64,000 nt of DNA, from positions 806,001 through 870,000 of the forward strand of contig NZ_JACCCO010000001.1 of assembly GCF_013409935.1 (NCBI RefSeq), read 5' to 3'. Both the position numbers and the translations under genes were made by a program. This DNA comes from Streptosporangium sandarakinum (GTDB lineage: Bacteria; Actinomycetota; Actinomycetes; Streptosporangiales; Streptosporangiaceae). Shown here piece after piece: positions 35,591 to 49,634 of the stretch. How positions within the stretch are numbered: the stretch's first letter is position 1; each line of letters begins with the position of its first letter. The notes under the pieces were generated by a model. It had not been told where the DNA came from. It saw only the letters and a program-made list of their open reading frames with translations, and did not search any database.

Positions 35591-37291
35591 ATGTCCCGGT
35601 CACAACAGGTCATGCGGACCGCTGCGGCGGCCGCCCAGGCGATGGGACAGGGAGGTGACCCACGCCAGATGGCCGGCCAGGCCATGGGCCGGCTGGCGGG
35701 CCAGTTCACCGGCCAGGCGCCCGGCGAGAAGGGCTTCGCACTCGATCCGGCCGACTTCGCCGCGGCCCGCGACCAGGACATCTCCACCGGGACGGTCATC
35801 GAGGCCCGCAGCGCCTCGCTGGCCGAGGCCGGTGAGATCCTCAGCCGGAGCTTCACCGCGGCCGGGCCGGACGGACGGCCCGCCCATGTGATCTCCCCGG
35901 TGGTGATCCCCAAGGGGACGACGGCGCGGTTGATCGTCCCGCTGGTGGTCCTGGCCGTCCTCGGCCTGGCCGGGCTGGTGGCCACGGGGCTGCCCGACGG
36001 CGCGCGGGTGCTGTTCGGCCCGCACTACTGGCTGGTCCTGGTGCTGGCCGCCGCGTTCCTGTGGTGGCGGCGCAGCGTGGTCATGGTCCCCGAGGGCGCC
36101 AAGGCGCTGATCACCAAGTTCGGCAAGCTCGTGCAGATCGCCGAGCCGGGCCGGGTGACGCTGTTCAACCCGTGGAAGCGGGTCAGCTACATCGTCAACA
36201 CCACCCGTGAGTACCCCTTCAACGCGCCCATCAGCGAGGCCCCGACCCAGCAGGGCGTCAAGGCGAGCGTCGACCTGTTCCTGCAGTTCCGCATCGAGGA
36301 CCCGGCCGAGTTCATCTTCGTCCTCGGCTCGGTCGGCGGCTTCCAGGCCAAGCTGCAGAACGCCATCAGCGAGGTCACCCGCTCCCTCATCTACGCCCAG
36401 CGCGCCGAGGAGATCTACGACCTGGTCGGCGAGAGCACCCTGGGCATGCTGGACAGCCTCAACCAGCAGTTCCTGCCCGCCGTACGGCTCACCGACGTGA
36501 ACATCACGCACGCCGAGCCGACGAGCCAGGAGTACCGGATGGACCTCGCCGCCCCCGAGATGATCAGGGTGGCCAAGGAGGCGTACACCTACGAGTACGA
36601 GCTGCAGCTGCGCAAGGAGCAGAACGAGGGAGACCTCGTCAGGGAGCTCGCCGGGCTGCAGGAGCAGCTGTCGGCCATCCAGGCCGAGATCGCCGGATAC
36701 CAGGCCCGGATGGACACCGCGCTGGAGCGCGCCTCCTACCAGGCCAAGGCGCAGGCGAGCCAGCGGCTGGTGGAGGCGGAGTCCACCGCCAAGGCCAACG
36801 CGGCGCTGCTGGAGGCGCAGGCGCTGGACATCCGGGCGCTGAGCGCGGCCCAGGCGCCGGAGATCCTGGACTACCGGTTCCAGCAGGACCTGCTCGACAA
36901 GCTGGAGGCGGTGGCCGCCCACCTGCCCCGGATGGTGCAGGTGGGCGAGCGGCCCGACATCGACCTGCTGACCCTGGCCAGGCAGCTCGTCGGCAGCCGG
37001 GACACGCAGCTGTTCTCCGAGCAGGACATGGCGGCCATCAGGGCGCGCGTCACCGAGATCGGCAGGCGGGTCGAGGAGCGCGGGTCGGAGATCGCCGCCC
37101 TGCTGAACCCGGCTCCGGAGACCGGCGGCGCGAGCGGCGGGACAGGCGGGACAGGCGGCACCGGTACGGCGGGCGGGACCGGCCCGGCCGGGACATCGCA
37201 GGCGGGGCGGGTGGAGCCGTCGGAGCGGGCGCTCCGGGCGGCCGAGGCGCAGGGCGGGCCGGCGGCCCGGGAAGGTGAGGACGTGCGATGA
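35591..37291 (+). CDS. SPFH/Band 7 (flotillin-like) membrane protein A
   Basis: A 566-residue membrane scaffold protein. A Gln/Ala/Gly-rich N-terminal part (1-100) is followed by two adjacent hydrophobic helices (about 118-158) and the SPFH domain (about 165-340: VPEGAKALITKFGKLVQIAE, SVDLFLQFRIEDPAEFIFVL). A long Ala/Glu/Gln coiled coil (about 345-430) and a Gly/Thr-rich tail end it. SPFH proteins form ring-like assemblies that organise membrane domains or proteases. It overlaps the next SPFH gene by four bases, so the two are probably made in fixed ratio, as hetero-oligomers like HflK-HflC. No NfeD-type partner is present. Confidence 0.85.
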   Translation: MSRSQQVMRTAAAAAQAMGQGGDPRQMAGQAMGRLAGQFTGQAPGEKGFALDPADFAAARDQDISTGTVIEARSASLAEAGEILSRSFTAAGPDGRPAHVISPVVIPKGTTARLIVPLVVLAVLGLAGLVATGLPDGARVLFGPHYWLVLVLAAAFLWWRRSVVMVPEGAKALITKFGKLVQIAEPGRVTLFNPWKRVSYIVNTTREYPFNAPISEAPTQQGVKASVDLFLQFRIEDPAEFIFVLGSVGGFQAKLQNAISEVTRSLIYAQRAEEIYDLVGESTLGMLDSLNQQFLPAVRLTDVNITHAEPTSQEYRMDLAAPEMIRVAKEAYTYEYELQLRKEQNEGDLVRELAGLQEQLSAIQAEIAGYQARMDTALERASYQAKAQASQRLVEAESTAKANAALLEAQALDIRALSAAQAPEILDYRFQQDLLDKLEAVAAHLPRMVQVGERPDIDLLTLARQLVGSRDTQLFSEQDMAAIRARVTEIGRRVEERGSEIAALLNPAPETGGASGGTGGTGGTGTAGGTGPAGTSQAGRVEPSERALRAAEAQGGPAAREGEDVR

Positions 37292-38568
37292 GCGCGGAGT
37301 TCTCCAAGATCAAGGAATCCCTGGCCTCCTGGTCGGAGATCCGCCAGCTGCTGCGCGGCGGCGAGTCGGGCCGGCTGGTCCCGGTGGTCATCCCCAAGGA
37401 CCGCCGCGGCTTCGCCTGGCTGACGCTGCCGTTCGCCGCGCTCTACCTCGCCGGCACGGCGGTGCTGGCCGGCGGGTTGATCTCCTTCCTGGCCGCGGTG
37501 GGCGCGGTGGTCCTGCTGCTGGCCTCGCTGGTCTGGGTGTGGCGACGGGCGATCATCGAGATCGAGGAGGGCACCACCGGCGTGCGCAGCCGCTGGGGCG
37601 CGATCACCGGCACCCTGCCCCCGGGCCGCCACTACCTGTGGCTGCCGTGGGACCGGGTGGACGCGGTGGTGGACACCTCCACCGAGATCCCCTACTCGGC
37701 GCCGATCGTGGCCTGCCCGACCGCGGAGAACGTGCCGCTGAAGTCGATCGAGTTCTTCCTGAAGTTCCGCATCGTCGACCCTGTGGCCTTCGTCCGGACG
37801 ATCGGGGCGAGCAACTTCGACCTCGTGCTGAGCAGCGCCGTACAGGACGCCATCCGCCAGCGCAGCCGCAGGGTGCACACCGAGCGCGCCTACGACCTGC
37901 GCGGGTCCGACGTCGGCGACATGCAGGAGCTGCTGACCCGCCAGCTCGGCCGGTACGGCGTGCGGATCACCGGCGCCAACATCCCCGACGTGCAGCTGCC
38001 CGACGCCTACCAGCAGCACCTGGCCACCCGGGAGAAGGTCGCCAAGGAGCTGTCGGCGTTCGAGCGGGAGTGGGAGCTCACCCGCAAGCGGCGGATCGAC
38101 ACCCTGCTGATGGAGATCGAGCGCGCCAAGAAGACGCGGGACGCGCGGATCGTGGAGGTGCGGGCCGCCGCCAACACCGCCCGCAAGGACGTCGCCCGCA
38201 TGCTGGAGGAGCACGAGACCGAGGCCCAGCGGGTGCGCTGGGAGATCGAGGCGAAGGGCCGGGCCGAGCTCACCTCCGCCGAGAACGAGGCCCGGGGGCT
38301 GCGCAGGCTGGCCGACTCCTACCGCGACAACCGGGCCGTGCTCCAGTACGAGCTGGCCCGCCGCCGCCTCGACGTGGGGGCCAGGCTCGCCGAGAGCGCC
38401 CCGCGTCCCCTGGTGGTCCGCACCGACGGCACCTCCGGCGACTCGTCGGCGCTGTCCACGATGCTCCTGGCCCAGCTCCTGCCGCGGATCGGCGGCATCG
38501 GCGACGGCGGCGCCGGGAGCGGGAACGGTGTGAACGGCCAGGGCAGGCCGTCCACCCAGCCCGGCTGA
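37288..38568 (+). CDS. SPFH/Band 7 (flotillin-like) membrane protein B
   Basis: A 426-residue paralogue of the upstream protein with the same order: two membrane helices (FAWLTLPFAALYLAGTAVLA and a second near 70-90), the SPFH domain (IEEGTTGVRSRWGAITGTLP, FFLKFRIVDPVAFVRTIGAS), then a highly charged coiled coil (KELSAFEREWELTRKRRIDT onward) rich in Arg and Glu. The ATG overlaps the upstream TGA (ATGA, 37288-37291). The stop is followed by 34-bp repeats and then a Spo0M gene on the same strand. A role in membrane stress or envelope organisation is inferred from family and context. Confidence 0.85.
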   Translation: MSAEFSKIKESLASWSEIRQLLRGGESGRLVPVVIPKDRRGFAWLTLPFAALYLAGTAVLAGGLISFLAAVGAVVLLLASLVWVWRRAIIEIEEGTTGVRSRWGAITGTLPPGRHYLWLPWDRVDAVVDTSTEIPYSAPIVACPTAENVPLKSIEFFLKFRIVDPVAFVRTIGASNFDLVLSSAVQDAIRQRSRRVHTERAYDLRGSDVGDMQELLTRQLGRYGVRITGANIPDVQLPDAYQQHLATREKVAKELSAFEREWELTRKRRIDTLLMEIERAKKTRDARIVEVRAAANTARKDVARMLEEHETEAQRVRWEIEAKGRAELTSAENEARGLRRLADSYRDNRAVLQYELARRRLDVGARLAESAPRPLVVRTDGTSGDSSALSTMLLAQLLPRIGGIGDGGAGSGNGVNGQGRPSTQPG

Positions 38569-38680
38569 GCCCGTCCCGGATGAGCCCGTCCCGGCCGGAC
38601 CCCGCCCCGGCCGGGGCGTCCCGCCTCGGTTCCGTCCCGGCCACGCGCGTCCCGGCCGGGCGCGCCCCGCTCCAGCCCCT

Positions 38681-38759
38681 TTCCGACCCGCGCCCCCTGA
38701 CCGGGCGCGTTCCATCGCAGACCCGTTCCGACCCGCGCCCCCTGACCGGGCGCGTTCCA
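38681..38759. repeat. Two 34-bp direct repeats before spo0M
   Basis: A 34-bp unit starting TTCCGACCCGCGCC and ending GCGCGTTCCA occurs at 38681-38714 and 38726-38759, an exact copy with a 45-base period. Each holds GCGCCC/GGGCGC arms that can fold. They end about 30 bases before the Spo0M start and could be paired operators. Confidence 0.8.
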
Positions 38760-38790
38760 CCTCACATCAGATGACATCCGGGGAGTACCC

Positions 38791-39564
38791 ATGGTTTTCC
38801 GCAAGCTGATGGCCGCGTTCGGCGCGGGCGTCGAAGTCGACACGATCCTGCAGAACTCCCACGTCCGCCCCGGCGAGATCCTGCGCGGGCGGGTCGACTT
38901 CCGCGGCGGCGGCTCCGAGCACCAGGTCGAGGGCATCTTCATCGACTTCACCGCGGTCGTCGAGGTCGAGAGCGGCGACAACGAGCACCACGCGACCTAC
39001 AGCTTCCTGCGCGAGCAGGTGGCCGGGCCGTTCCGGCTCGCGGCGGGCGCGGCCCACTCGGCGCCGTTCGAGATCGCCGTCCCGTGGGAGACCCCGATCA
39101 GCGCCGTCGGCGGCCACCCGCTGCGCGGCATGCGGCTCGGCGTGGCCACCGAGCTGGCCCTGGCCGGGGCGCTGGACAAGGGCGACCTCGACCCGCTGTT
39201 CGTCAATCCGCTGCCCGCCCAGGACAACGTGCTCGGCGCGCTGAGCCGGATGGGCTTCCACTTCAAGAAGGCCGACCTGGAGCGGGGCACGCTGCGCGGC
39301 TCGCGGATGCCGTTCTTCCAGGAGATCGAGTACCACGCGGGCCACGAGTACGGCCGGCACTTCAGCGAGCTGGAGCTGACGTTCATCACCGGGCCGCACT
39401 CGATGGACGTCATCCTGGAGGCCGACAAGCGCGGCGGCTTCCTGTCCTCCGGCGGTGACACCTACGACCGGTTCACGGTCCGGCACGACGACCACCCGGG
39501 CCAGGTGGAGCAGTCGCTGCGCGCGGGGCTGGAGTCGATGGCCCGCAGGCGCGGCTGGTTCTAG
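38791..39564 (+). CDS. spo0M: Sporulation control protein Spo0M (arrestin-like)
   Basis: A 257-residue Spo0M family protein with an arrestin-like double beta-sandwich: VFRKLMAAFGAGVEVDTIL at the start, VRPGEILRGRVDFRGG, and VPWETPISAVGGHPLRGMRL linking the two halves. The C-terminal tail is HPGQVEQSLRAGLESMARRR. In Bacillus Spo0M affects sporulation and membrane or cytoskeletal processes; its mechanism is unclear. Here it follows two SPFH proteins, which also act at the membrane, so the three may form one membrane-organisation unit. The ribosome site GGGGAG lies seven bases before the ATG. Confidence 0.9.
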   Translation: MVFRKLMAAFGAGVEVDTILQNSHVRPGEILRGRVDFRGGGSEHQVEGIFIDFTAVVEVESGDNEHHATYSFLREQVAGPFRLAAGAAHSAPFEIAVPWETPISAVGGHPLRGMRLGVATELALAGALDKGDLDPLFVNPLPAQDNVLGALSRMGFHFKKADLERGTLRGSRMPFFQEIEYHAGHEYGRHFSELELTFITGPHSMDVILEADKRGGFLSSGGDTYDRFTVRHDDHPGQVEQSLRAGLESMARRRGWF

Positions 39565-39752: not shown

Positions 39753-40763
39753 ATGGGTCGGATGGCACGGTTCGGGACATGGCTCGGCAAGAACGCCGAC
39801 GGTTTCATCGCCCTGCTCCTCGCGGTGGGCGTCGGCGTGGTGGGCCTGCTGGACGACGCCATCGACAAGGCCGTGCGCGACCAGGTGATCGAGTCCGGGA
39901 CCCTGCTGGTGCTGGCCCTGCTGACCACCGCGATCCTGCGTGACCGCTGGCGCCAGGAGCCGGCCGAGACGGCGATGCGGGAGAGCTTCGCCAGGACCTC
40001 CACGCTGCCGGAGCGGATGCAGCGCCTGGAGGGCGTGGTCTCCGAGGCCGGGCGGGCCCTCGCGGACCTGTCGGTCGTCAAGGTCCTCAACGGCGCGGAG
40101 GAGATCGCCAAGGCGCACGCGGAGGCGCGCGCCGGCACCGACCGCTGGACCTTCAAGGGCGGTACGGGCACGTACCTCCGCGCGGTGACGCTGCCCGAGT
40201 GCGTGGCGGCCGCGCGGGCGCAGCGGCGCGCGCTGCTGATGCGCCTGGAGATCATCGACCCGGCCGACGAGCGGGTCTGCGAGGCGTACGCCCGCTTCCG
40301 CCGGTCGATGTCGCAGGAGCCGGACGGCACGGGCGAGGTCTGGACGGCCGAGCGCACCCGCAAGGAGGCGTTCGCCACCATCCTCGCGGGCTGCTGGTAC
40401 CACCAGCGGTTCGGCCTGCTGGAGATCCACATCGGGCTGTCGGCCACGATGACGACGTTCCGCTGGGACCTGTCGGCCTCCTCGCTGATCATCACCGGGG
40501 AGGACCCGCGGCGGGCGCTGCTCGCCGGGCGGCGGTCCTTCTACTACGACAGCTGCACCACCGAGCTGATGGCCAGCCTGGAGCAGGCCAGGCGGGTGCC
40601 GATCGAGCTGGCCAGGTCGGTCCCGCTCGGCGACGAGCCGACGATCGAGGAGGTGCGCAAGCTGTTCGAGACCCTCGGCCTGCCCCTCCCCCGGTCCTAC
40701 ACCGACAGGGATGTCGCCGACCTCACGCGCAAGGCGCTCCGGGCCAAGAATCCCTACCCCTGA
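39753..40763 (+). CDS. Membrane protein of unknown function
   Basis: A 336-residue protein that I cannot assign. Two N-terminal helices (GFIALLLAVGVGVVGLLDDA and GTLLVLALLTTAILRDRW) are followed by a short coiled coil (RMQRLEGVVSEAGRALADL) and a soluble domain of ~210 residues. That domain contains WTFKGGTGTYLRAVTLPEC, LLMRLEIIDPADERVCEAYA and FYYDSCTTELMASLE. It has the look of an enzyme or ligand-binding fold facing the cytosol. The ATG 39753 has GGAG six bases upstream, with ATG 39762 an alternative. Its stop is nine bases from the next ATG, so it heads a three-gene operon with a cupin and an inositol-phosphatase-type enzyme. Confidence 0.7.
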   Translation: MGRMARFGTWLGKNADGFIALLLAVGVGVVGLLDDAIDKAVRDQVIESGTLLVLALLTTAILRDRWRQEPAETAMRESFARTSTLPERMQRLEGVVSEAGRALADLSVVKVLNGAEEIAKAHAEARAGTDRWTFKGGTGTYLRAVTLPECVAAARAQRRALLMRLEIIDPADERVCEAYARFRRSMSQEPDGTGEVWTAERTRKEAFATILAGCWYHQRFGLLEIHIGLSATMTTFRWDLSASSLIITGEDPRRALLAGRRSFYYDSCTTELMASLEQARRVPIELARSVPLGDEPTIEEVRKLFETLGLPLPRSYTDRDVADLTRKALRAKNPYP

Positions 40764-40772
40764 CGGGACGAG

Positions 40773-41507
40773 ATGAGATACCAGGAGCTGTACGAGGAGA
40801 TGACCGGCGGCCGCGGGGGCGAGGCCCTGCGCGGCTGGGCCGGGCGGGTGCTGCGGGACATCGCGTCGGGCGCCTCCCCGGTCGCCGGGGTCCGCCATCC
40901 GCTCGGGTTCCTCTGCCTGCCGCTGGAGCGGACCGGGGAGTACGGCGTGTGCCTGCACATCTGGTCCGGCGCGCTGCCGCGCGCCGCCTCCACCACCTCC
41001 CAGATCCACTGCCACAGCTGGGACCTGGTCAGCCACGTGCTGTACGGCCGGGTGGAGAACGTGCGCGCCGACGTCGGCGACGCGGGCGGCGGCGCGGGGG
41101 ACGGCGCCGCGGGCGCGGCCGGCGGGACCCCCGGGCACACCGGAGAGGCCGCGGCCGGAGACGGTGGGACGACCGTCCCGCCCGGGGCCACCCACCGGGT
41201 CTTCGAGGTCGTCAGCGACGCGGGCGGCGACCGTATCCTGCCGACCCCGCGCACCGTCCGGTGCGCCCCCGGGGTGAGCGAGGTGTACGGGCCGGGCGAG
41301 ACCTACACGCTGCCCGCCGGGGTGTTCCACTCCAGCGTCGTGCCCGGCGGGGAGACCGCCACGATCGCGCTGGGCCACGGCCGTCCCGGCCGCAGCGACC
41401 TGTCGCTCGGCCCGCTCGGGCTCGGCGCCCACCTGGTCCCCCGCCACCGCTGCGACGCGCGGGAGACCGCGCGGGCCGCGCTGCACGCGGCGGGACGCCT
41501 GTCCTGA
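40773..41507 (+). CDS. Cupin-fold protein of unknown function
   Basis: A 244-residue protein with cupin-like motifs. STTSQIHCHSWDLVSHVLYG resembles the first cupin box (H-x-H and a glycine after a spacer), and TYTLPAGVFHSSVV the second (the P-x-G-x-x-H pattern). Between them is a Gly/Ala-rich insert (about residues 108-135) that looks disordered. The pattern recalls cysteine-dioxygenase-like metal cupins, but the substrate is unknown. It is tightly linked to the membrane protein before it (nine bases) and precedes the phosphatase-family gene by 56 bases. Confidence 0.65.
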   Translation: MRYQELYEEMTGGRGGEALRGWAGRVLRDIASGASPVAGVRHPLGFLCLPLERTGEYGVCLHIWSGALPRAASTTSQIHCHSWDLVSHVLYGRVENVRADVGDAGGGAGDGAAGAAGGTPGHTGEAAAGDGGTTVPPGATHRVFEVVSDAGGDRILPTPRTVRCAPGVSEVYGPGETYTLPAGVFHSSVVPGGETATIALGHGRPGRSDLSLGPLGLGAHLVPRHRCDARETARAALHAAGRLS

Positions 41508-41563: not shown

Positions 41564-42505
41564 ATGGTTCGGCAGACGAGCGAGGGCCGCCCCGGGGACG
41601 GCGCCGTGGAGCGGGACGGGGAGCACGCCGGGGACGGCGCCGTGGAGCGGGACGGGGATCGCGCCGCCGCGCCGACGGATCTGGAGCGCGCCCGCCGGGT
41701 CGCCGTGGACGCCGCGCGGGCGGCCGGCTGGCTGATCACCGAGGGCACCCGGGCGGCCCTCGTGGTCAACCCCAAGGGCGACGACGGCGACGTGGTCACC
41801 GACCTCGATCTCTCGTCGGAGAGGCTGCTGGTCGGCCGGGTCCTCTCGGCGTTCCCCGGGCACGCGGTGATCTCCGAGGAGGCGGGCGTGCTGGGTGAGG
41901 CCGGGTCGGAGTGGACGTGGGTCATCGATCCGCTCGACGGCACCAACAACGTGGCGATCGGCCTGCCTCTGTACGCCGTGGGCCTGGCGCTGTGCCGCGG
42001 CGGGCGGCCCGAGCTGGGGGTCGTGCACGAGCCGGTGACCGGCCGTACCTGGTCGGCCGTGCGGGGCCGGGGCGCGGTCGGCCCGGCGGGCCCGCTGTCG
42101 GCTCCGCCGTACCGGCCCGGCCGCTCCGGCCCGGTGCTGGCCTGGGTCCAGGGGTACGGCGTGCGGCGCGGCGACCCCGTGGCCACGGCGCTGAAGGCGG
42201 CGCTCGACCTGCGTGCCCGCCGGGTGCTGCGGCTGTGGGCCCCGCTGCTCGCCTGGGTGATGCTGGCCCGGGGGGACATCGACGGGATCGTGGGCTACCG
42301 GACCGGGGTCGTCGACCTGCCGGGCGGCCTGCTGATCGCGCGGGAGGCCGGGGCGGTGGTCGGCGGCTTCGACGGCGCGCCGTTCGACCGCGTCCCGCTG
42401 GACGGGAGCGGGTGCGACTTCGTCGCCGGGCGGGCCGGGCTGCGGGAGGAGCTGCTGGAGGAGGTCCTGAAGGAGGCCGGGGCCGTCCGGAAGGCCGCGC
42501 CGTGA
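41564..42505 (+). CDS. Inositol monophosphatase family protein
   Basis: A 313-residue Mg2+-dependent phosphatase of the FIG superfamily (inositol monophosphatase, CysQ, fructose-1,6-bisphosphatase). Metal-site motifs are intact: AVISEEAG with the catalytic Glu pair, and WVIDPLDGTNNVAIGLPLYA. The C-terminal motif is GVVDLPGGLLIAREAG, where the usual Trp before Asp is Val, which may alter substrate choice. The first ~40 residues carry a duplicated GDGAVERDG unit. Possible substrates are an inositol phosphate or 3'-phosphoadenosine nucleotides. GAGGAGG lies before ATG 41564. Last gene of the three-gene unit. Confidence 0.85.
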   Translation: MVRQTSEGRPGDGAVERDGEHAGDGAVERDGDRAAAPTDLERARRVAVDAARAAGWLITEGTRAALVVNPKGDDGDVVTDLDLSSERLLVGRVLSAFPGHAVISEEAGVLGEAGSEWTWVIDPLDGTNNVAIGLPLYAVGLALCRGGRPELGVVHEPVTGRTWSAVRGRGAVGPAGPLSAPPYRPGRSGPVLAWVQGYGVRRGDPVATALKAALDLRARRVLRLWAPLLAWVMLARGDIDGIVGYRTGVVDLPGGLLIAREAGAVVGGFDGAPFDRVPLDGSGCDFVAGRAGLREELLEEVLKEAGAVRKAAP

Positions 42506-42569: not shown

Positions 42570-43760
42570 TCAGGCGGTGAGCAGCAGCGCGGCCACGGCG
42601 GCGGCCACCCCGGTCACCGCCAGCCCGGCCCCGGCCAGCACGAACGTCAGCGGCGGCACCCGCACCGCGCGGCGGCGGCACCACTCGAACCACAGCAGGG
42701 TGGCCAGCGACGCCCAGGGGGTGATCACCGGCCCGATGTTGGTGCCGATGAGCAGGGCGAGGAGCTGGTCGCGGTTGCCGGGCGGGACGACCTCCTCCAC
42801 CGCGGTGTAGGCGGGCAGGTTGTTGATCAGGTTGGCCAGCCCGCCGCCGGTGACCGCCGCCCGGTAGGCGCCGCCGGTGTCGCCCGCCGTGCCGGTCAGC
42901 GCGCCCATGAGGCCGGCCAGGCCGTACCGGCTCAGGGTGGGCACCACCAGGAACAGGCCGGTGACGAAGACCAGGAGCTGCCAGGGGAACAGGGAGAGGG
43001 TGAGCTTGGACCGGTCGCGCCAGGCGAAGGCGGCGATCATCAGCACCGCCGCGGCGAGGGCGGCGAGCTGGATCGGCAGCTCCAGCAGGAGCGCGGCGAT
43101 GAACAGCACGCACACCGTGGCCGCGACCCGGAACAGCAGCGGGTCGGCGACCGGGACGGGACCGGGCGGGACGTAGCGGCCGGCGCCGCGCCGGCCGCGC
43201 CGCCAGAAGAACACCCACAGGAAGACCATGGTGACCGCGATCGAGGCGGCCTGCGGCAGCCAGAGCCGCCCGGCGAACTCCTTGGTGGACATGCCCAGGC
43301 GGTCCATGGCGAGAAGGTTCGTCAGGTTCGACACCGGCAGCAGCAGGCTCGCGGTGTTGGCCAGCCAGACGGTGGTCATGGCCAGCGGCAGCGCGGCGAT
43401 GCCGGTCCTGGCGGCCAGGGCGAGCATGACCGGCGTCAGCAGCACGGCGGTGGTGTCGAGGTTGAGGAACATGGTGACCAGGGCGGCGAAGGCGGTGCAC
43501 AGCAGGAACAGCGCCGCGTAGTTCCCCCGCCCGGCCGCCGCCAGCCTCGCCGCGATCACGTCGAAGACCCCGGCCTCCTTGACGAGCTCGGCCATCACGA
43601 TCACCGCGCCGAGGAACAGCAGGATGGGCGCTATCCGCGTCAGCTCGGCCCGGGCGTCCCCGATGGGCAGCAGGCCGGTCAGGACGGACAGGAGACCCAG
43701 CGCCAGCAGGCCGATCCGAATCCAGTCCAGAACGCTCAGTCGCCGCAGCACACCGACCAT
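42570..43760 (-). CDS. ArsB/NhaD-type ion transporter
   Basis: A 396-residue membrane protein with about 11 helices from the ion-transporter superfamily that includes ArsB, NhaD, CitM and SLC13 members. Family marks are AALVTMFLNLDTTAVLLTPV in the first half and GGGLANLINNLPAYTAVEEV in the second, the paired re-entrant regions (L-N-x-D-T-T and N-N-L-P-A). ArsB-like proteins export arsenite; others move dicarboxylates or Na+/H+. No ars regulator, reductase or ATPase is adjacent, so the substrate is open. Divergent from the TIR-NACHT gene, with 114 bases between the starts. Confidence 0.82.
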   Translation of the reverse strand: MVGVLRRLSVLDWIRIGLLALGLLSVLTGLLPIGDARAELTRIAPILLFLGAVIVMAELVKEAGVFDVIAARLAAAGRGNYAALFLLCTAFAALVTMFLNLDTTAVLLTPVMLALAARTGIAALPLAMTTVWLANTASLLLPVSNLTNLLAMDRLGMSTKEFAGRLWLPQAASIAVTMVFLWVFFWRRGRRGAGRYVPPGPVPVADPLLFRVAATVCVLFIAALLLELPIQLAALAAAVLMIAAFAWRDRSKLTLSLFPWQLLVFVTGLFLVVPTLSRYGLAGLMGALTGTAGDTGGAYRAAVTGGGLANLINNLPAYTAVEEVVPPGNRDQLLALLIGTNIGPVITPWASLATLLWFEWCRRRAVRVPPLTFVLAGAGLAVTGVAAAVAALLLTA

Positions 43761-43874
43761 GATCCACGAGGCCGGTCAAGATCGCACGTCCGTCCTTGAT
43801 CGAACCCCTTCGTATCGCCGGTACGGCGGGCGATACTGGACTCCCGTTGGACGGCGGCGAGGGGTGTGATCGCT

Positions 43875-46800
43875 ATGGCGCGCGACGACAGGCCGATCGA
43901 CATCTTCGTCAGCTACTCCCCCGCCGACGAACGCTGGGCGTCGTGGATCGCCTGGGAGCTGGAGGCCGCCGGTTACCGCACGATGATCCAGGCGTGGGAC
44001 TTCGTGCCGGGGACCCAGTTCATCGAGTTCATGGACCGCGGTGTCAGCGAGGCCGCGCTGGTGGTCGCGGTGCTGTCGCGCAACTACCTCAGGTCGCGCT
44101 GGGGGCGGATGGAGTGGCAGGCCGCGCTGCGCGCCGACCCCGACAACCCCTCCAACAAGCTGGTCACGATCCGGCTGGAGGACTGCCCGCTGGAGGGGCT
44201 GCTGGCCACGATCACCTGGGTGGACCTGGTCGGGGTGACCGGCGCCGACGAGGCGCGGGCGCTGCTGCTGAACCGGATCGAGCAGGCGCTGGCCGGCCGT
44301 GCCAAGCCACTGGACCGGCCGTCCTTCCCCGTCGGCCCGGCCCTCACCGGCGGGACGGCGGCCGTCCCCGGCGAGGTCCCGGCGGCGCCGTCCCGGCACG
44401 GGCCGGCGCGGGCCCGCCGTACCCCGGTGGCGCCGCCCGCCTACCCGGCCGGGCCGCCGGCGCGGGGCCCGCGCGGGCCGGTGACGCTGCTGCACGTGGC
44501 GGGCCCCCGGTTCGGCCGGGGGCTGGCCGCCGAGGACGAGCCGCTGACGGCCGAGGAGCTGCAGCCGCGGATCTGGGCCGACCTGACCCGGATGCGGGAC
44601 GCCGGGGCGCCGCGGCCCGACCTGATGATCGTGACCGGTGACCTCACCGAGTCGGGCAGCCGCCGCGAGTTCGGCGAGGCCGCGGCGTTCCTGACCGGGC
44701 TGCGGGTGCTGCTCGGCCTGGAGCCGCAGCGGCTGGTGGTCGTGCCCGGCCCCCGCGACGTCACCAAGGCCGCCTGCCGGGCCTACTTCAGCAACTGCGA
44801 GGCCGACGACGTGCGCCCGCAGCCGCCCTACTGGCCCAAGTGGCGGCACTTCGCCGCCCTGTTCGAGGAGCTCTACCTGGGGCTCGACGGGCCGGAGTTC
44901 GACAGCGCCCAGCCGTGGACGCTCTTCGCCGTCCCCGACCTCAAGGTCGTGGTGGCCGGGCTCAACTCCACGATGGCGATGAGCCACCGCGAGGAGGACG
45001 GCTACGGCTTCGTCGGCGAGGCGCAGGCCGCGTGGTTCGCCGAGCGGCTGCGGCCGTTCGAGGAGGCGGGCTGGCTGCGGGTCGGCGCGGTCGGCCACCC
45101 ACCCGTCACCCCCCACCTGCGTGACGCCGCGACGGTCGAGCGGCTGCTGGCCGGGCGGCTCAACCTGCTGCTGCACGGCACCGGCGGCACGCGCGGCGCG
45201 TCCGCCGCCGACGGCCCGGAGGCGGGGGGCGGCGCCGGGCCGAGGGACGCGCTGCGCCTGCCCGCCCTGGCCCCGGGACGCCACCGGATCATCGAGGTGA
45301 CCGCGGACGGCCTGCGCCGCTGGGACCGCGACCGCGACGACCCGGCGCCCACCGAGGAGGTGACGCGCCGGTGGCACGCGACGGGGCTGACGTTCGCCCC
45401 GGCCGACTCCCCCGAGGGCCTCGCCGGCCCCGCCGCCCTGCCGCCGGCCGGGCCCGGCCCGGCCGGGCCGGAGCGGGCGCCGTCCCCGTCGATGCTGCTG
45501 CTCGACCGGATCGCCGAGGTGTGCGAGGCCCGGCACGACCGGGTCAAGATCAGGAAGATTCCCGGCGAGGTTCCGCAGCTGCTGGTCACCTACCCCGAGG
45601 ACGGCTTCGTCCGGCAGCTGCGGATCGGCGCGCACGCCGGGGAGCCGACCCGGCGCGAGGTGGAGGCGTTCGCCGGCCAGGTGCACGCCTCCGGGATGGA
45701 GCACGGCGCCGAGCTGGTCTACCAGGGGCCGCCGCCGTCGCCGGCGCTGCGCGAGGAGACGGCCCGGCGGGGGCTGCGGCTGCGCAGCTTCACCGAGTTC
45801 CAGGGGCTGATGGACCTGACGGGATACGTCGCCGACCAGACGGCGCGGCTGCGCGCCGACCGGCGCTACCCGCCGGAGCTGTACGTGCCGCAGCGGTTCC
45901 GGGAGCTGGACCGCCCCGGCGGGCAGGTCCGGGAGGGCCTGACCGACGAGCTGATGCGGCTGCTGGCCGCCGACCACGGCCGGTTCCTGCTGCTGCTGGG
46001 CGACTTCGGGCACGGCAAGACCTTCGCGCTGCGCGAGCTGGCCCGGCGGATCCCGGTGGAGCTGCCGCACCTGGTGCCGATCCTGATCGAGCTGCGCTCC
46101 CTGGACAAGGCGCACTCGGTGGACGGGCTGGTCGCCGCGCACCTGGCCGGGCACGGCGAGGACGTCATCGACCTGAAGGCGTTCCACTACATGCTCCGCC
46201 AGGGCCGCGTGGTGCTGCTGTTCGACGGGTTCGACGAGCTGGTCACCCGGGTGACCTACGACCGCGCCGCCGACCACCTCGACACGCTGCTGCAGGCGGC
46301 CGAGGACAAGGCGAAGATCGTCGTGGCCGGCCGTACCCAGCATTTCAAGTCCAGCGCGCAGGTGCTGACCAAGCTCGGCGAGAGGGTGGGGCTGCTGCCG
46401 CAGCGGCGGCTGCTGAGCATCGAGGACTTCACCCGGCCGCAGATCCGCTCCTACCTCGTCAACCGCTACGGCGGCGACGAGGACGCGGCGGGCGACCGGT
46501 TCTCGCTGATGAGCGACATCGGGGACCTGCTGGGCCTGGCGAGCAACCCGCGGATGCTCGGCTTCATCGCCGACCTCGACGGGCAACGCCTGGCCACCGT
46601 CGCCCGGGCCCGGCACACCATCAGCGCGGCGCTGCTGTACGAGGAGATCATCGGCTCCTGGCTCACCTTCGAGGAGCATCGGGTACACGGCGTGCCGGGC
46701 GCGACCACCGGGCTGCGCGCCCGGCAGCTGCGCGAGGCGGTGACGGCGCTGGCGCTGCGGCTGTGGGAGAGCGGCGAGGCGTACCTGCGGCCCGCCGAGC

Positions 46801-49634
46801 TGGCCGAGGCCGCCGAGACGCTGACCGGCCTGGCCGACGGGCAGCTGACCGGCGGGCAGACCGCGCACGCGGTCGGGACGGGCAGCCTGCTGGTCCGCAC
46901 CGAGGAGGGCCTGTTCGGGTTCATCCACTCCTCCGTCGTGGAGTGGCTGGTCGCCCGGCACGTCGCCGCGACGTTCCCCGCCCCGGCGGCGCTCGCCCGC
47001 AGGCCGCTGTCGCAGCTGACGGTGGAGTTCCTGTGCGACCTGGCCGACGTGCGCGCCTGCCGGTCCTGGGCGGCCGGGGTGCTGGCCGACCCGGACGCCG
47101 GCGACGTCTCCCGGGCCAACGCCGTCAGGATCACCACCAGGCTGCGCACGCCCGCGATGACCGACCTGCGGGGCGCCGTGCTGCGCGGCGAGGACCTGTC
47201 CGAGCGTGACCTGCGGGAGGTCGACCTCACCGGCGCCGACCTGACCGACGCCGTCCTCGCCGGGACCGACCTGTCGCGCGCCGTGCTGCGCGGCGCGCGG
47301 CTGACCGGGGCCCTGCTGGACGAGGCCAGGCTCACCGGCGCCGACCTGCGCGGCGCCGACCTGACCCGGGCCCGGCTGGCCAGGGCGGACCTGCGGGACG
47401 CGGCGCTGGCGGGCAGCCGCTGGCAGCGGGCCGCGCTGATCGACGTCACCGGTACGGTGACCGGCGTCCCGGAGCTGCGCGGCGCCGCGATCGCGCCGGG
47501 CCACCCGGTGGAGACCGAACTCGCCCCGGCGGCGATCGGCGTGCCGTACGGTTACCACTTTCAAAGCGGCAGGCTGCCCGAGCCCGTCGCCTACAGCCCC
47601 GACGGCGAGACCGTGGCGATCGGCGGCGACGACGGCGGGGTGCTGCTGTGCGACAGCTCCACGGGCCTGCCGATCAGGAACCTGCGCGGCCACCGCGGGC
47701 GGGTCTACGCCGTCACCTTCGACGACTCGGGCGACCTGCTGGCCACCGGGGCGAGCGACGGCACGGTCCGGCTGTGGGACCCGGTCACCGCGCAGGCGTC
47801 CCACGTGCTCACCGGGCACCGCGACGGGGTGTGGCCGGTGCTGTTCGGCCCCGGCGGCCGGCTGGTGGCGGCCGGCGGCGCCGACGGCGTGGTGCGGCTC
47901 TGGGACACCGCCACCGGCCTGCCGTACCGGGAGCTGGCCGGGCACCGGGCGCCGATCTACACCGCGGCGTTCGACGCGGGCGGCGGCACGCTCGTCACCG
48001 GCGACGCCGGCGGGACGATCCGGATGTGGGACGTGCGGTCCGGCGCGCTCGTCCGGACCCTGACCGGCCACCGCGGCCGGGTCTATCGCCTCGCCTACGA
48101 CCCCGGCGGCACGCTCCTGGCGGCCGGGGGCCGCGAGGGCGCGGTGCGGATCTGGGACCCCCGCGACGGGCGGGTCCTGCACGAGCTGACCGGGCACGCC
48201 GGCCGCGTCTACGCGCTGGCCTTCACCCCGTCCGGGCGGCTGCTGGCGACCGGCGACACCGAGGGCGAGATCCGGCTGTGGGACCCGGTCACCGGCGCCT
48301 CGCGGGGCGTGCGCGCCGGCCATCGCGCGGCGGTCTACCAGGTCGCGTTCAGCCCCGACTCAGCGCTGCTGGCCAGCGCCGACTCCGACGGCGCGGTCCA
48401 CCTGCGCGACGTCTCCGACGACCGGGGCCGGGTGGAGCTGACCGGGCACCGCGGCTCGGTCTGGCCGTTCGCCTTCCGGCCCGACGGCGGCCAGCTCGCC
48501 ACCGTCAGCAACGACGGCACGGCCCGGCTGTGGGACCCGGTCACCGGGCAGTGCCGGCACGTGCTGCGCGGCCACGGGCGGAAGATCACCTCGGTGCGGT
48601 TCAGCGGCGACGGCAGCATGCTGGCGACCAGCGGCAACGACGGGGTCGTGCGGATCTGGGAGCCGCGCACCGGCCGCCGCCTGCGGGAGCTCACCGGGCA
48701 GGCCGACCGGCTCATCTCCGCCGACTTCAGCCCGGCCGGGCCCACGCTCGCCACCGCCAGCAACGACGGCGGGGTGCACTTCTGGAACGCCGCCACCGGC
48801 GACTACGAGCGGGAGCTGGACGTCGAGACCGACCACGTGTGGGCGGAGGCGTTCAGCCCCGCCGGGGACCACATCGCCACCGCCAACGACGACGACAGCG
48901 TCTGCGTCTGGTACCGGCCGAGCGGCCGGCGGGTCGTCAGGCTCGCCGACCACCACGGCCGGGTCCGCTCCATCGCGTTCAGCCCGGACGGCGAGCGCCT
49001 GGCGACCGGCTGCGACGACCGGCTGGTGCGGATCTGGGAGATCGGGAGCGGCGAGTGCGTCGCCGTCCTGGAGGGGCACACCGACCGGGTGTACGCGGTG
49101 ACCTTCAGTCCGGACGGCCGCGAGCTGCTCAGCGCCGGCAACGACGGCCAGGCCCTGGTGTGGGACCTGCGGCGGGAACGCCCGGAGCTCCGGCGCGCCC
49201 TCACCCGTGGCTCCGGGCGGCTGTGGGCCGCCGCCTGCAGCCCGGACGGCTCACTGCTGGCCACCGGCGGCGACGACCTGTCGGTGCGGCTCTGGGACGC
49301 CCGCACCGGCCGGCACCTGCACTCCCTCACCGGGCACACCCGGCGGATCTGGTCGCTGGCCTTCGCCCCCGGCGGGGACCTGCTGGCCAGCGCGGGCGAC
49401 GACGGCGTGGTGATCCTGTGGGATCTGCGCCCCGGTACGGCTCCCGCCCGGCGGGTCTCGCTCCTGGGACTGGCCGAGGGGTGGGCGGCCATCGCGCCGG
49501 ACGGGCGGTACAAGCTGGTGGGCGACGTGGCGGGCCAGTTCTGGTACGCCGTGGGGACCCGCCGGTTCGAGCCGGGGGAACTGGACGCCTACCTGCCGGT
49601 GGCCGGCCGGATCCCGCTGGACGCCGAGTTCTGA
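43875..49634 (+). CDS. TIR-(phosphoesterase-like)-NACHT-pentapeptide-WD40 STAND protein
   Basis: A 1,919-residue multidomain protein. TIR domain ~7-150 (DIFVSYSPADERWASWIAWE; putative NADase Glu in RWGRMEWQAAL). Calcineurin-phosphoesterase-like domain ~203-475 with only MIVTGDLTESG kept of its metal motifs. A small alpha/beta linker domain ~545-690. NACHT NTPase with Walker A GDFGHGKT (709-716) and Walker B VVLLFDGFDEL (D784). Pentapeptide repeats ~1095-1190, then 15 WD40 repeats ~1235-1854. STAND proteins of this build bind a trigger with the repeat region, oligomerise through the NTPase and activate the N-terminal effector; bacterial TIR effectors often destroy NAD+. ATG 43875 has GAGGGG ten bases upstream; GTG 43866 is an alternative. 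Confidence 0.92.
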   Translation: MARDDRPIDIFVSYSPADERWASWIAWELEAAGYRTMIQAWDFVPGTQFIEFMDRGVSEAALVVAVLSRNYLRSRWGRMEWQAALRADPDNPSNKLVTIRLEDCPLEGLLATITWVDLVGVTGADEARALLLNRIEQALAGRAKPLDRPSFPVGPALTGGTAAVPGEVPAAPSRHGPARARRTPVAPPAYPAGPPARGPRGPVTLLHVAGPRFGRGLAAEDEPLTAEELQPRIWADLTRMRDAGAPRPDLMIVTGDLTESGSRREFGEAAAFLTGLRVLLGLEPQRLVVVPGPRDVTKAACRAYFSNCEADDVRPQPPYWPKWRHFAALFEELYLGLDGPEFDSAQPWTLFAVPDLKVVVAGLNSTMAMSHREEDGYGFVGEAQAAWFAERLRPFEEAGWLRVGAVGHPPVTPHLRDAATVERLLAGRLNLLLHGTGGTRGASAADGPEAGGGAGPRDALRLPALAPGRHRIIEVTADGLRRWDRDRDDPAPTEEVTRRWHATGLTFAPADSPEGLAGPAALPPAGPGPAGPERAPSPSMLLLDRIAEVCEARHDRVKIRKIPGEVPQLLVTYPEDGFVRQLRIGAHAGEPTRREVEAFAGQVHASGMEHGAELVYQGPPPSPALREETARRGLRLRSFTEFQGLMDLTGYVADQTARLRADRRYPPELYVPQRFRELDRPGGQVREGLTDELMRLLAADHGRFLLLLGDFGHGKTFALRELARRIPVELPHLVPILIELRSLDKAHSVDGLVAAHLAGHGEDVIDLKAFHYMLRQGRVVLLFDGFDELVTRVTYDRAADHLDTLLQAAEDKAKIVVAGRTQHFKSSAQVLTKLGERVGLLPQRRLLSIEDFTRPQIRSYLVNRYGGDEDAAGDRFSLMSDIGDLLGLASNPRMLGFIADLDGQRLATVARARHTISAALLYEEIIGSWLTFEEHRVHGVPGATTGLRARQLREAVTALALRLWESGEAYLRPAELAEAAETLTGLADGQLTGGQTAHAVGTGSLLVRTEEGLFGFIHSSVVEWLVARHVAATFPAPAALARRPLSQLTVEFLCDLADVRACRSWAAGVLADPDAGDVSRANAVRITTRLRTPAMTDLRGAVLRGEDLSERDLREVDLTGADLTDAVLAGTDLSRAVLRGARLTGALLDEARLTGADLRGADLTRARLARADLRDAALAGSRWQRAALIDVTGTVTGVPELRGAAIAPGHPVETELAPAAIGVPYGYHFQSGRLPEPVAYSPDGETVAIGGDDGGVLLCDSSTGLPIRNLRGHRGRVYAVTFDDSGDLLATGASDGTVRLWDPVTAQASHVLTGHRDGVWPVLFGPGGRLVAAGGADGVVRLWDTATGLPYRELAGHRAPIYTAAFDAGGGTLVTGDAGGTIRMWDVRSGALVRTLTGHRGRVYRLAYDPGGTLLAAGGREGAVRIWDPRDGRVLHELTGHAGRVYALAFTPSGRLLATGDTEGEIRLWDPVTGASRGVRAGHRAAVYQVAFSPDSALLASADSDGAVHLRDVSDDRGRVELTGHRGSVWPFAFRPDGGQLATVSNDGTARLWDPVTGQCRHVLRGHGRKITSVRFSGDGSMLATSGNDGVVRIWEPRTGRRLRELTGQADRLISADFSPAGPTLATASNDGGVHFWNAATGDYERELDVETDHVWAEAFSPAGDHIATANDDDSVCVWYRPSGRRVVRLADHHGRVRSIAFSPDGERLATGCDDRLVRIWEIGSGECVAVLEGHTDRVYAVTFSPDGRELLSAGNDGQALVWDLRRERPELRRALTRGSGRLWAAACSPDGSLLATGGDDLSVRLWDARTGRHLHSLTGHTRRIWSLAFAPGGDLLASAGDDGVVILWDLRPGTAPARRVSLLGLAEGWAAIAPDGRYKLVGDVAGQFWYAVGTRRFEPGELDAYLPVAGRIPLDAEF

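Follow-up and report, generated by a model that had tools for sequence, protein, structure and literature searches.

A TIR-STAND protein of Streptosporangium sandarakinum, encoded within the 64,000-nucleotide stretch of DNA that was analysed (the window), carries a TIR domain with its putative catalytic glutamate, a NACHT module with intact Walker motifs and, between them, a metallophosphoesterase (MPE) fold from which most of the metal-binding residues have been lost, and its gene lies in a conserved cassette with genes for a CitMHS/ArsB-like transporter, a PLD-fold protein and a cupin-like protein (Table 1). The domain order, the loss of the MPE ligands and the conservation of the TIR and NACHT residues extend across a clade of relatives, and in some genomes the cassette is missing or has decayed as a whole, with others holding it at different sites. 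Our preferred reading, to which we give a probability of roughly 0.55, is that this cassette-encoded protein would act as a triggered NAD+-cleaving switch whose phosphoesterase domain is largely stripped of metal ligands. The mechanism that the sequence makes most likely is one in which the WD40 propellers would bind a phage- or stress-derived trigger, the NACHT module would then bind ATP and oligomerise, and the clustered TIR domains would cleave NAD+, leading to cell arrest or death; the cassette partners may act with the switch, as co-effectors or brakes.

Table 1. Genes of the cassette and predicted domains of the TIR-NACHT protein, in window coordinates.
Feature	Coordinates	Strand	Evidence or remark
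336-aa PLD-like protein, predicted membrane protein	39753..40763	+	PLD fold match, hydrophobic stretches
Cupin-like protein	40773..41507	+	motif-based; Pfam Cupin_2 0.15, below cut-off
Inositol monophosphatase family gene, usual cassette neighbour	41564..42505	+	Pfam Inositol_P 3.9e-40
CitMHS/ArsB-like transporter, divergent neighbour	42570..43760	-	Pfam CitMHS 4.6e-37
Divergent intergenic region, transporter / TIR gene	43761..43874	.	114 bases
TIR-pseudo-phosphoesterase-NA-iREase3-NACHT-pentapeptide-WD40 protein	43875..49634	+	1,919 aa
TIR domain	43896..44288	+	aa 8-138; Pfam TIR_2 1.5e-34
MPE fold, most of catalytic metal set gone	44466..45374	+	aa 198-500
NA-iREase3 (NACHT-associated inactive restriction-endonuclease fold)	45498..45818	+	aa 542-648; PF22739 2.6e-38
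NACHT NTPase	45984..46460	+	Walker A GDFGHGKT (709-716), Walker B FDGFDE (783-788)
Pentapeptide-repeat stalk	47157..47444	+	aa about 1095-1190
WD40 repeats	47547..49454	+	14 scored by Pfam

The sequence-only reading of this open reading frame, for which an alternative GTG start codon lies at 43866, had described a chain of five modules, and domain matches support all five: TIR, MPE fold, NACHT, pentapeptide and WD40. The NA-iREase3 domain had been overlooked, and in place of the 15 WD40 repeats counted earlier Pfam scores 14, a number compatible with the two seven-bladed propellers then envisaged. Foldseek and VIA return MyD88, SARM1 and the SPARTA TIR as structural matches of the TIR domain, and the NACHT model scores 42.3 bits against a threshold of 26.7. 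The phosphoesterase-like fold that had been placed between TIR and NACHT is present, an assignment resting on NCBIfam and a structural model; a phmmer search of the PDB with the MPE part gave nothing better than an E-value of 0.16, with Lmo2642 at 0.32. The observation as first noted is partly confirmed.

Residue conservation was followed in an alignment of 156 proteins, comprising the window protein and the proteins listed from the first two of three homologue searches (best 120 of 635, best 120 of 1,219 and best 120 of 438); since these lists hold the best matches only, the MPE, TIR and Walker counts describe near relatives. Walker A K715 and Walker B D784, D787 and E788 are conserved in 156/156 of these proteins, among the matches listed, as expected from the earlier claim of an intact NACHT module. 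By its Walker A and B motifs the window protein is a NACHT-type STAND NTPase, in which ATP-driven oligomerisation upon trigger binding is predicted. The conserved TIR glutamate noted before (Glu80, 44112-44114) is retained in 146 of 147 aligned rows among the matches listed, so that the protein has both the TIR fold and the catalytic residue that define TIR NADases, NAD+ hydrolysis itself being putative. The domain matches and these conserved catalytic residues together uphold the sensor-switch-effector layout proposed for the protein.

The same residues bear on the idea that the TIR is a non-catalytic scaffold and that the output lies elsewhere, for example in membrane proteins, for which the cassette, with its transporter and predicted membrane protein, would offer a route. 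Against it stand the near-invariant glutamate (146/147 among the matches listed) and the selection on the domain: in the three informative comparisons, with the genes at loci L032, L034 and L036, dN/dS of the TIR (0.12-0.25) was in each case the lowest of eight parts, compared with 0.22-0.33 for NACHT, 0.37-0.47 for WD40 and 0.32-0.43 for the whole gene, polA giving 0.28-0.30 as a reference. We regard a purely structural TIR as improbable.

The MPE presents the opposite picture of conservation. In the window protein the motif I aspartate is replaced by G210, position 212, the next ligand, is an arginine, GNHD has become GPRD and GHxH is gone, with motif II Asp256 and motif IV His408 retained. 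Across the 156-protein set, among the matches listed, glycine replaces the motif I aspartate in 152/152 aligned rows, arginine occupies position 212 in 152/152 and the GNH asparagine remains in 3/154. The set was then enlarged by the 120 proteins of the third search (best 120 of 438), which used the MPE of a TIR-less relative as query; an MPE segment is present in 274 of the resulting 276 proteins, the exceptions being P0144 and P0153. Among the matches listed, the motif I aspartate, GNHD and GHxH, the metal-ligand motifs I, III and V, are jointly absent from 146 of 147 TIR-positive rows, the window protein included, so that the Metallophos fold persists without them; the single row with all three is P0264. 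Of the 127 rows in which TIR was undetected, again among the matches listed, 110 keep all three motifs, 9 are mixed and 8 have none; these 8 proteins of 1,187-1,763 aa may be N-terminally short, because their MPE matches begin at residues 1-67. When a looser GHxH pattern is accepted at any point of the segment, 120/127 TIR-negative and 3/147 TIR-positive rows match among those listed (P0264, P0075 and P0101). In the motif-intact TIR-negative group the second motif I ligand is glutamine instead of histidine in 116/127 rows (among the matches listed), and for this reason the enzyme activity of that group is itself putative.

Beyond the order, 17 of the 28 matching places in the class were fetched as loci. 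The motif I aspartate and GNH asparagine are gone in all 15 of the loci L151-L165, and the motif V HxH is absent in 11 of these, L158-L161 retaining it; L166 and L167 retain the full motif set. Five of the loci (L158-L161 and L165) have a TIR of a different type, with SWVREEW or SWVTEEW around the glutamate, an MPE without motifs I, II and III, and no cassette match. From these sequences the MPE domain of the TIR-bearing clade looks like a pseudoenzyme. That it might still be an enzyme with an unusual metal site, making the protein a dual effector, draws on the motif II aspartate (121/147) and motif IV histidine (145/147) of the TIR-positive rows, on the loose GHxH in 3/147 including P0264 (all among the matches listed), on the HxH of L158-L161 and on a dN/dS of the MPE part below 1. 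The joint loss of motif I aspartate, GNHD and strict GHxH in 146/147 of the matches listed, together with the loss of motif I aspartate and GNH asparagine in 15/15 class-level loci, makes a catalytic second effector highly improbable. A two-arginine phosphate pocket (R212 and R294) was also considered as a sensor site and was dropped because position 294 is histidine in 54/154 rows among the matches listed and position 212 varies outside the order, being glycine in L152 and L153 and aspartate in L154.

A tree of the iREase3-NACHT region, built from 66 rows chosen among the 263 that were long enough for use, and drawn with midpoint rooting only, places the main TIR-positive rows with a dead MPE in one clade (100/100, stem 0.83) that sits among TIR-negative lineages. 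Within this clade P0144 bears NNH7 and no detected TIR or MPE, from which it appears that N-terminal modules still exchange. P0264, on a long branch, represents a separate TIR gain with an intact MPE; at class level TIR was undetected in L162 and L167, and L166 combines TIR with an intact MPE. The cases of P0264 and L166 argue against TIR gain as a sufficient cause of MPE death. The parsimonious reading is that the effector was replaced and that the former active site then decayed, the order of events being deduced from the sequences: the ancestor would have used an intact phosphoesterase as its effector, the TIR would then have taken over this role, and the old phosphoesterase may have been retained purely for its fold, as a spacer or a regulatory interface. 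With the motifs lost in 146/147 TIR-bearing rows and intact in most TIR-less ones, among the matches listed, the family offers a clear case of effector replacement within one STAND chain.

The gene had been thought to stand alone, a claim that comparison of its neighbourhoods overturns. Within the order, 40 occupied loci of our own choosing were fetched from 39 of 146 positive genomes, and four of them (L065-L068), distant forms with no TIR and no cassette match, were set aside. Of the remaining 36 cassette-clade loci, 35 have the transporter gene (L045 has no match), 32 the 336-aa PLD-fold gene and 32 the cupin-like gene; coaE follows downstream in 31, as far as the fetched DNA reaches. The four loci without the 336-aa gene reflect cuts: G061, G054 and G062 have the gene some 9-10.5 kb away from the MPE part on its upstream side, and G192 has it on another contig. 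Upstream of the cassette the window holds two Band_7/SPFH genes and a Spo0M gene (35591-39564), which mark the other border of the usual slot, spo0M - cassette - coaE. No RNA family reached its gathering threshold between window positions 38000 and 53000.

In the 336-aa protein two hydrophobic stretches near the N terminus start at residues 15 and 44, and a PLD-like domain follows at about residues 105-285. Despite the PLD fold match, the HxKxxxxD (HKD) motif of PLD superfamily enzymes occurs in 0 of 31 aligned rows, and the protein has no Pfam match at 1e-3, no PADLOC match and no PDB sequence match; a divergent relative gives a weak CcmD match (0.0037) over a hydrophobic stretch. The next product we take to be cupin-like from its motif, Cupin_2 scoring weakly (0.15 and 0.066) in two of five such proteins scanned.

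A second scan of named genomes, anchored on the 336-aa gene and yielding 54 loci with species partly shared with the first set, found cupin, transporter, MPE and NACHT matches in all 46 loci over 19 kb and TIR in 45 of them; one of the 46, L092, is decayed. Of the 8 shorter loci, most of which end at contig ends, all have the cupin, 6 the transporter, 4 a TIR match and 2 an MPE match. One of them, L105 from Sphaerisporangium corydalis, reaches coaE with the cassette beside it but has no TIR gene. Across 318 genomes, 140 have both the 336-aa gene and the MPE part (among them G261 and G285, whose MPE matches are short pieces), 6 the MPE part alone, 11 the 336-aa gene alone and 161 neither, counts that share ancestry and are not independent events. 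The MPE-only genomes are G040, G201, G305 and G308, the sources of L065-L068, G240, at 45% identity like these, and G252. Those with the 336-aa gene only comprise five with divergent copies and no nearby TIR gene (L142-L146), G281 with the decayed L073, G196, which matches L105, and G015, G025, G132 and G185. The divergent 336-aa gene forms a pair with the cupin gene in L142-L146, lying between coaE and spo0M in L144 and L145; in L147 the TIR gene stands head to head with a divergent 336-aa gene and no transporter match between, and L063 has two copies of the 336-aa gene close to its TIR gene, one on each strand. Beyond the order, 8 loci (L151-L157 and L164) carry the same TIR type at identities of at least 61%; all 8 have a CitMHS-family gene, divergent and upstream in 4 and co-directional and downstream in 4, with cupin in 7/8 and the 336-aa gene in 5/8. 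The other 9 of the 17 class-level loci gave no cassette match.

Such neighbours might be hitchhikers, the TIR protein working alone and merely sharing a conserved insertion slot with them. The TIR-less pairs of PLD-like and cupin genes in L142-L146 fit this idea, as do the seven class-level relatives with a dead MPE and no cassette match (L158-L163 and L165), and both groups count against our preferred reading; L071 and L072, which keep the transporter only, and L045 without it point the same way. Against this, all five loci without coaE in the fetched DNA (L035, L059, L060, L063 and L064) retain the transporter and the 336-aa gene, and four of them the cupin; the CitMHS-family gene accompanies the TIR gene in 8/8 fetched loci of the same TIR type outside the order, in both arrangements; and pairwise distances between TIR-NACHT proteins correlate with those between the transporters (r 0.84). 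Hitchhiking is unlikely. The linkage is of interest because it pairs a TIR-STAND protein with a conserved transporter of CitMHS type and a predicted membrane protein of PLD fold, and because other families of the class show this pairing again with their genes in a different order.

Many relatives lack the cassette or carry decayed remnants of it, and such differences occur even inside a single genus. A further 17 loci (L071-L087) were taken from 16 genomes of the order in which no intact TIR gene is present; of these, eight (L076-L081, L083 and L086) have spo0M and coaE with no transporter, 336-aa, cupin or TIR-gene match, L071 and L072 have the transporter alone beside coaE, L073 and L074 are decayed-looking with partial cassette members, L075 has a lone transporter, and L082, L084, L085 and L087 have coaE without spo0M or cassette matches. 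One genome, G287, holds a second copy (L035) whose TIR protein and transporter are 86-87% and 87-88% identical to the copies of genus g17, compared with 59% and 65% to G287's own, a relationship that makes horizontal transfer likely; the 336-aa gene of L035 is only 61-67% identical to the genus-g17 copies. Over 29 loci, pairwise distances of the TIR-NACHT protein follow those of coaE (r 0.60) and rpsA (r 0.62), with coaE and rpsA correlating at 0.67. Carriage on phages or plasmids was examined with the MPE part only as query and set aside: no match was obtained in 50,697 phage records, and the sole match in the plasmid collection was NZ_LT559118.1 (Nonomuraea), an 11.85 Mb record that is probably a chromosome. 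The joint absence or decay of the cassette members, the nearly fixed length of the WD40 array and the lack of a phage match for the MPE part fit a mostly vertically kept, dispensable STAND system better than a mobile single-gene Avs.

The WD40 segment measures 624-647 residues in 132 of 143 full-length TIR-positive members, whose mean identity to the window protein is 78% for TIR, 83% for NACHT and 63% for WD40; the repeats are thus constant in number yet less constrained. Repeat copies of TIR-negative relatives reach a maximum lag identity of 0.78, compared with 0.49 in TIR-positive proteins, the medians being close (0.38 and 0.32). The TIR-less L065 and L066 have WD40 copies that stay almost identical over long stretches, which looks like recent amplification; the repeats of the window protein, by contrast, are diverged. 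The sequence-only reading had held that housekeeping contexts without repeat variation would speak against an immune sensor, and what was found lies halfway: coaE is downstream in 31/36 loci and WD40 length is near-fixed, but the WD40 part changes faster than TIR and NACHT, and in other genomes the cassette is absent, decayed or elsewhere. The interpretation as a STAND immune sensor is partly supported.

These observations allow that the same switch serves a physiological purpose, inducing cell death or dormancy in multicellular actinomycetes under stress or during development, and is not an antiphage system. The downstream coaE, the WD40 length, the occurrence of mostly one match per genome in 146 of 318 genomes, the distances that track coaE and rpsA, and the lack of any phage or true plasmid match for the MPE part all accord with it. 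A near-constant WD40 length and a frequent core-locus position are unlike fast-evolving sensors and, like the lack of a phage match for the MPE part, count against our preferred reading; the two features favour an internal-stress role more than the features of a typical Avs would. Conversely, the dispensability of the cassette even within one genus, its second, probably transferred copy in G287 and the weaker constraint on WD40 than on TIR and NACHT tell against a physiological role, and absence, decay and transfer favour a conflict system. We consider the physiological switch possible, though not probable. Since the system is mostly vertically kept, it becomes testable whether such switches serve the life cycle of their hosts besides phage defence. 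More speculatively, and with some doubt on our part, the cassette could encode an undescribed multi-gene actinobacterial 'membrane resistosome', in which a core-locus TIR-STAND receptor, its MPE effector replaced by TIR and the dead enzyme kept as a scaffold, would relay its signal, through an NAD-derived product or through its own assembly, to a CitMHS-type transporter and a dedicated membrane protein of PLD fold, as a long-kept death or dormancy switch of mycelial bacteria.

Returning to the TIR-STAND switch that we prefer, its likeness to known systems is partial. Avs proteins are large STAND NTPases with an N-terminal effector and a C-terminal sensor, an organisation that the window protein shares; it differs from them in its conserved cassette and often core locus, and none of its 9 PADLOC rows up to E 1 (PADLOC-DB of 2023) is an Avs model, the best being HEAT-ARM_XIII, which covers the WD40 part, and bSEFIR, which covers the TIR. 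NCBIfam equivalog scores are far below their cut-offs (EruA 23.2 against 1000 bits, HyoA 8.6 against 1200, DS9_1 45.8 against 420, Thoeris type III 14.2 against 220), DS9_1 phosphoesterase being the nearest named model for the MPE. With no Avs model among those PADLOC rows and a gene that travels with its cassette, the earlier view of a single-gene Avs-like system is rejected. PADLOC applied to 10 picked flanking proteins from seven loci outside the coaE slot gave two matches, one at 5.7e-12 to an oxidoreductase model and the other weak, at 1.5e-4. The TIR-less MPE-iREase3-NACHT-pentapeptide-WD40 proteins (L065-L067 and relatives) have the same C-terminal chassis and a homologous MPE, and differ in lacking TIR, in MPE motifs that are intact in most (110/127 rows among the matches listed), and in that some carry a trypsin-like domain (PF13365) and some very similar WD40 copies. 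A literature search at the level of titles and abstract openings, covering few subscription papers, found no description of a fusion of a dead calcineurin-type domain with TIR or of the cassette. Among NACHT-type STAND antiphage proteins, to which bNACHT25 and the NCBIfam families EruA and HyoA belong, the bNACHT proteins are described in the accessible part of PMC12169576 as following a tripartite logic of N-terminal effector, central NACHT and C-terminal sensor; this order is common to the window protein, which differs in its TIR effector, pseudo-MPE, WD40 array and gene cassette, and which scores below the EruA and HyoA cut-offs. In their accessible portions, which contain no mention of the cassette, Kaur et al. 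(PMC8195603, PMC7159879) report STAND proteins whose N-terminal effectors, TIR, calcineurin and trypsin domains among them, can be exchanged; as far as those portions go, TIR and calcineurin-type domains replace each other there before the STAND module, whereas the window protein holds both in one chain, the calcineurin-type domain being dead across the clade.
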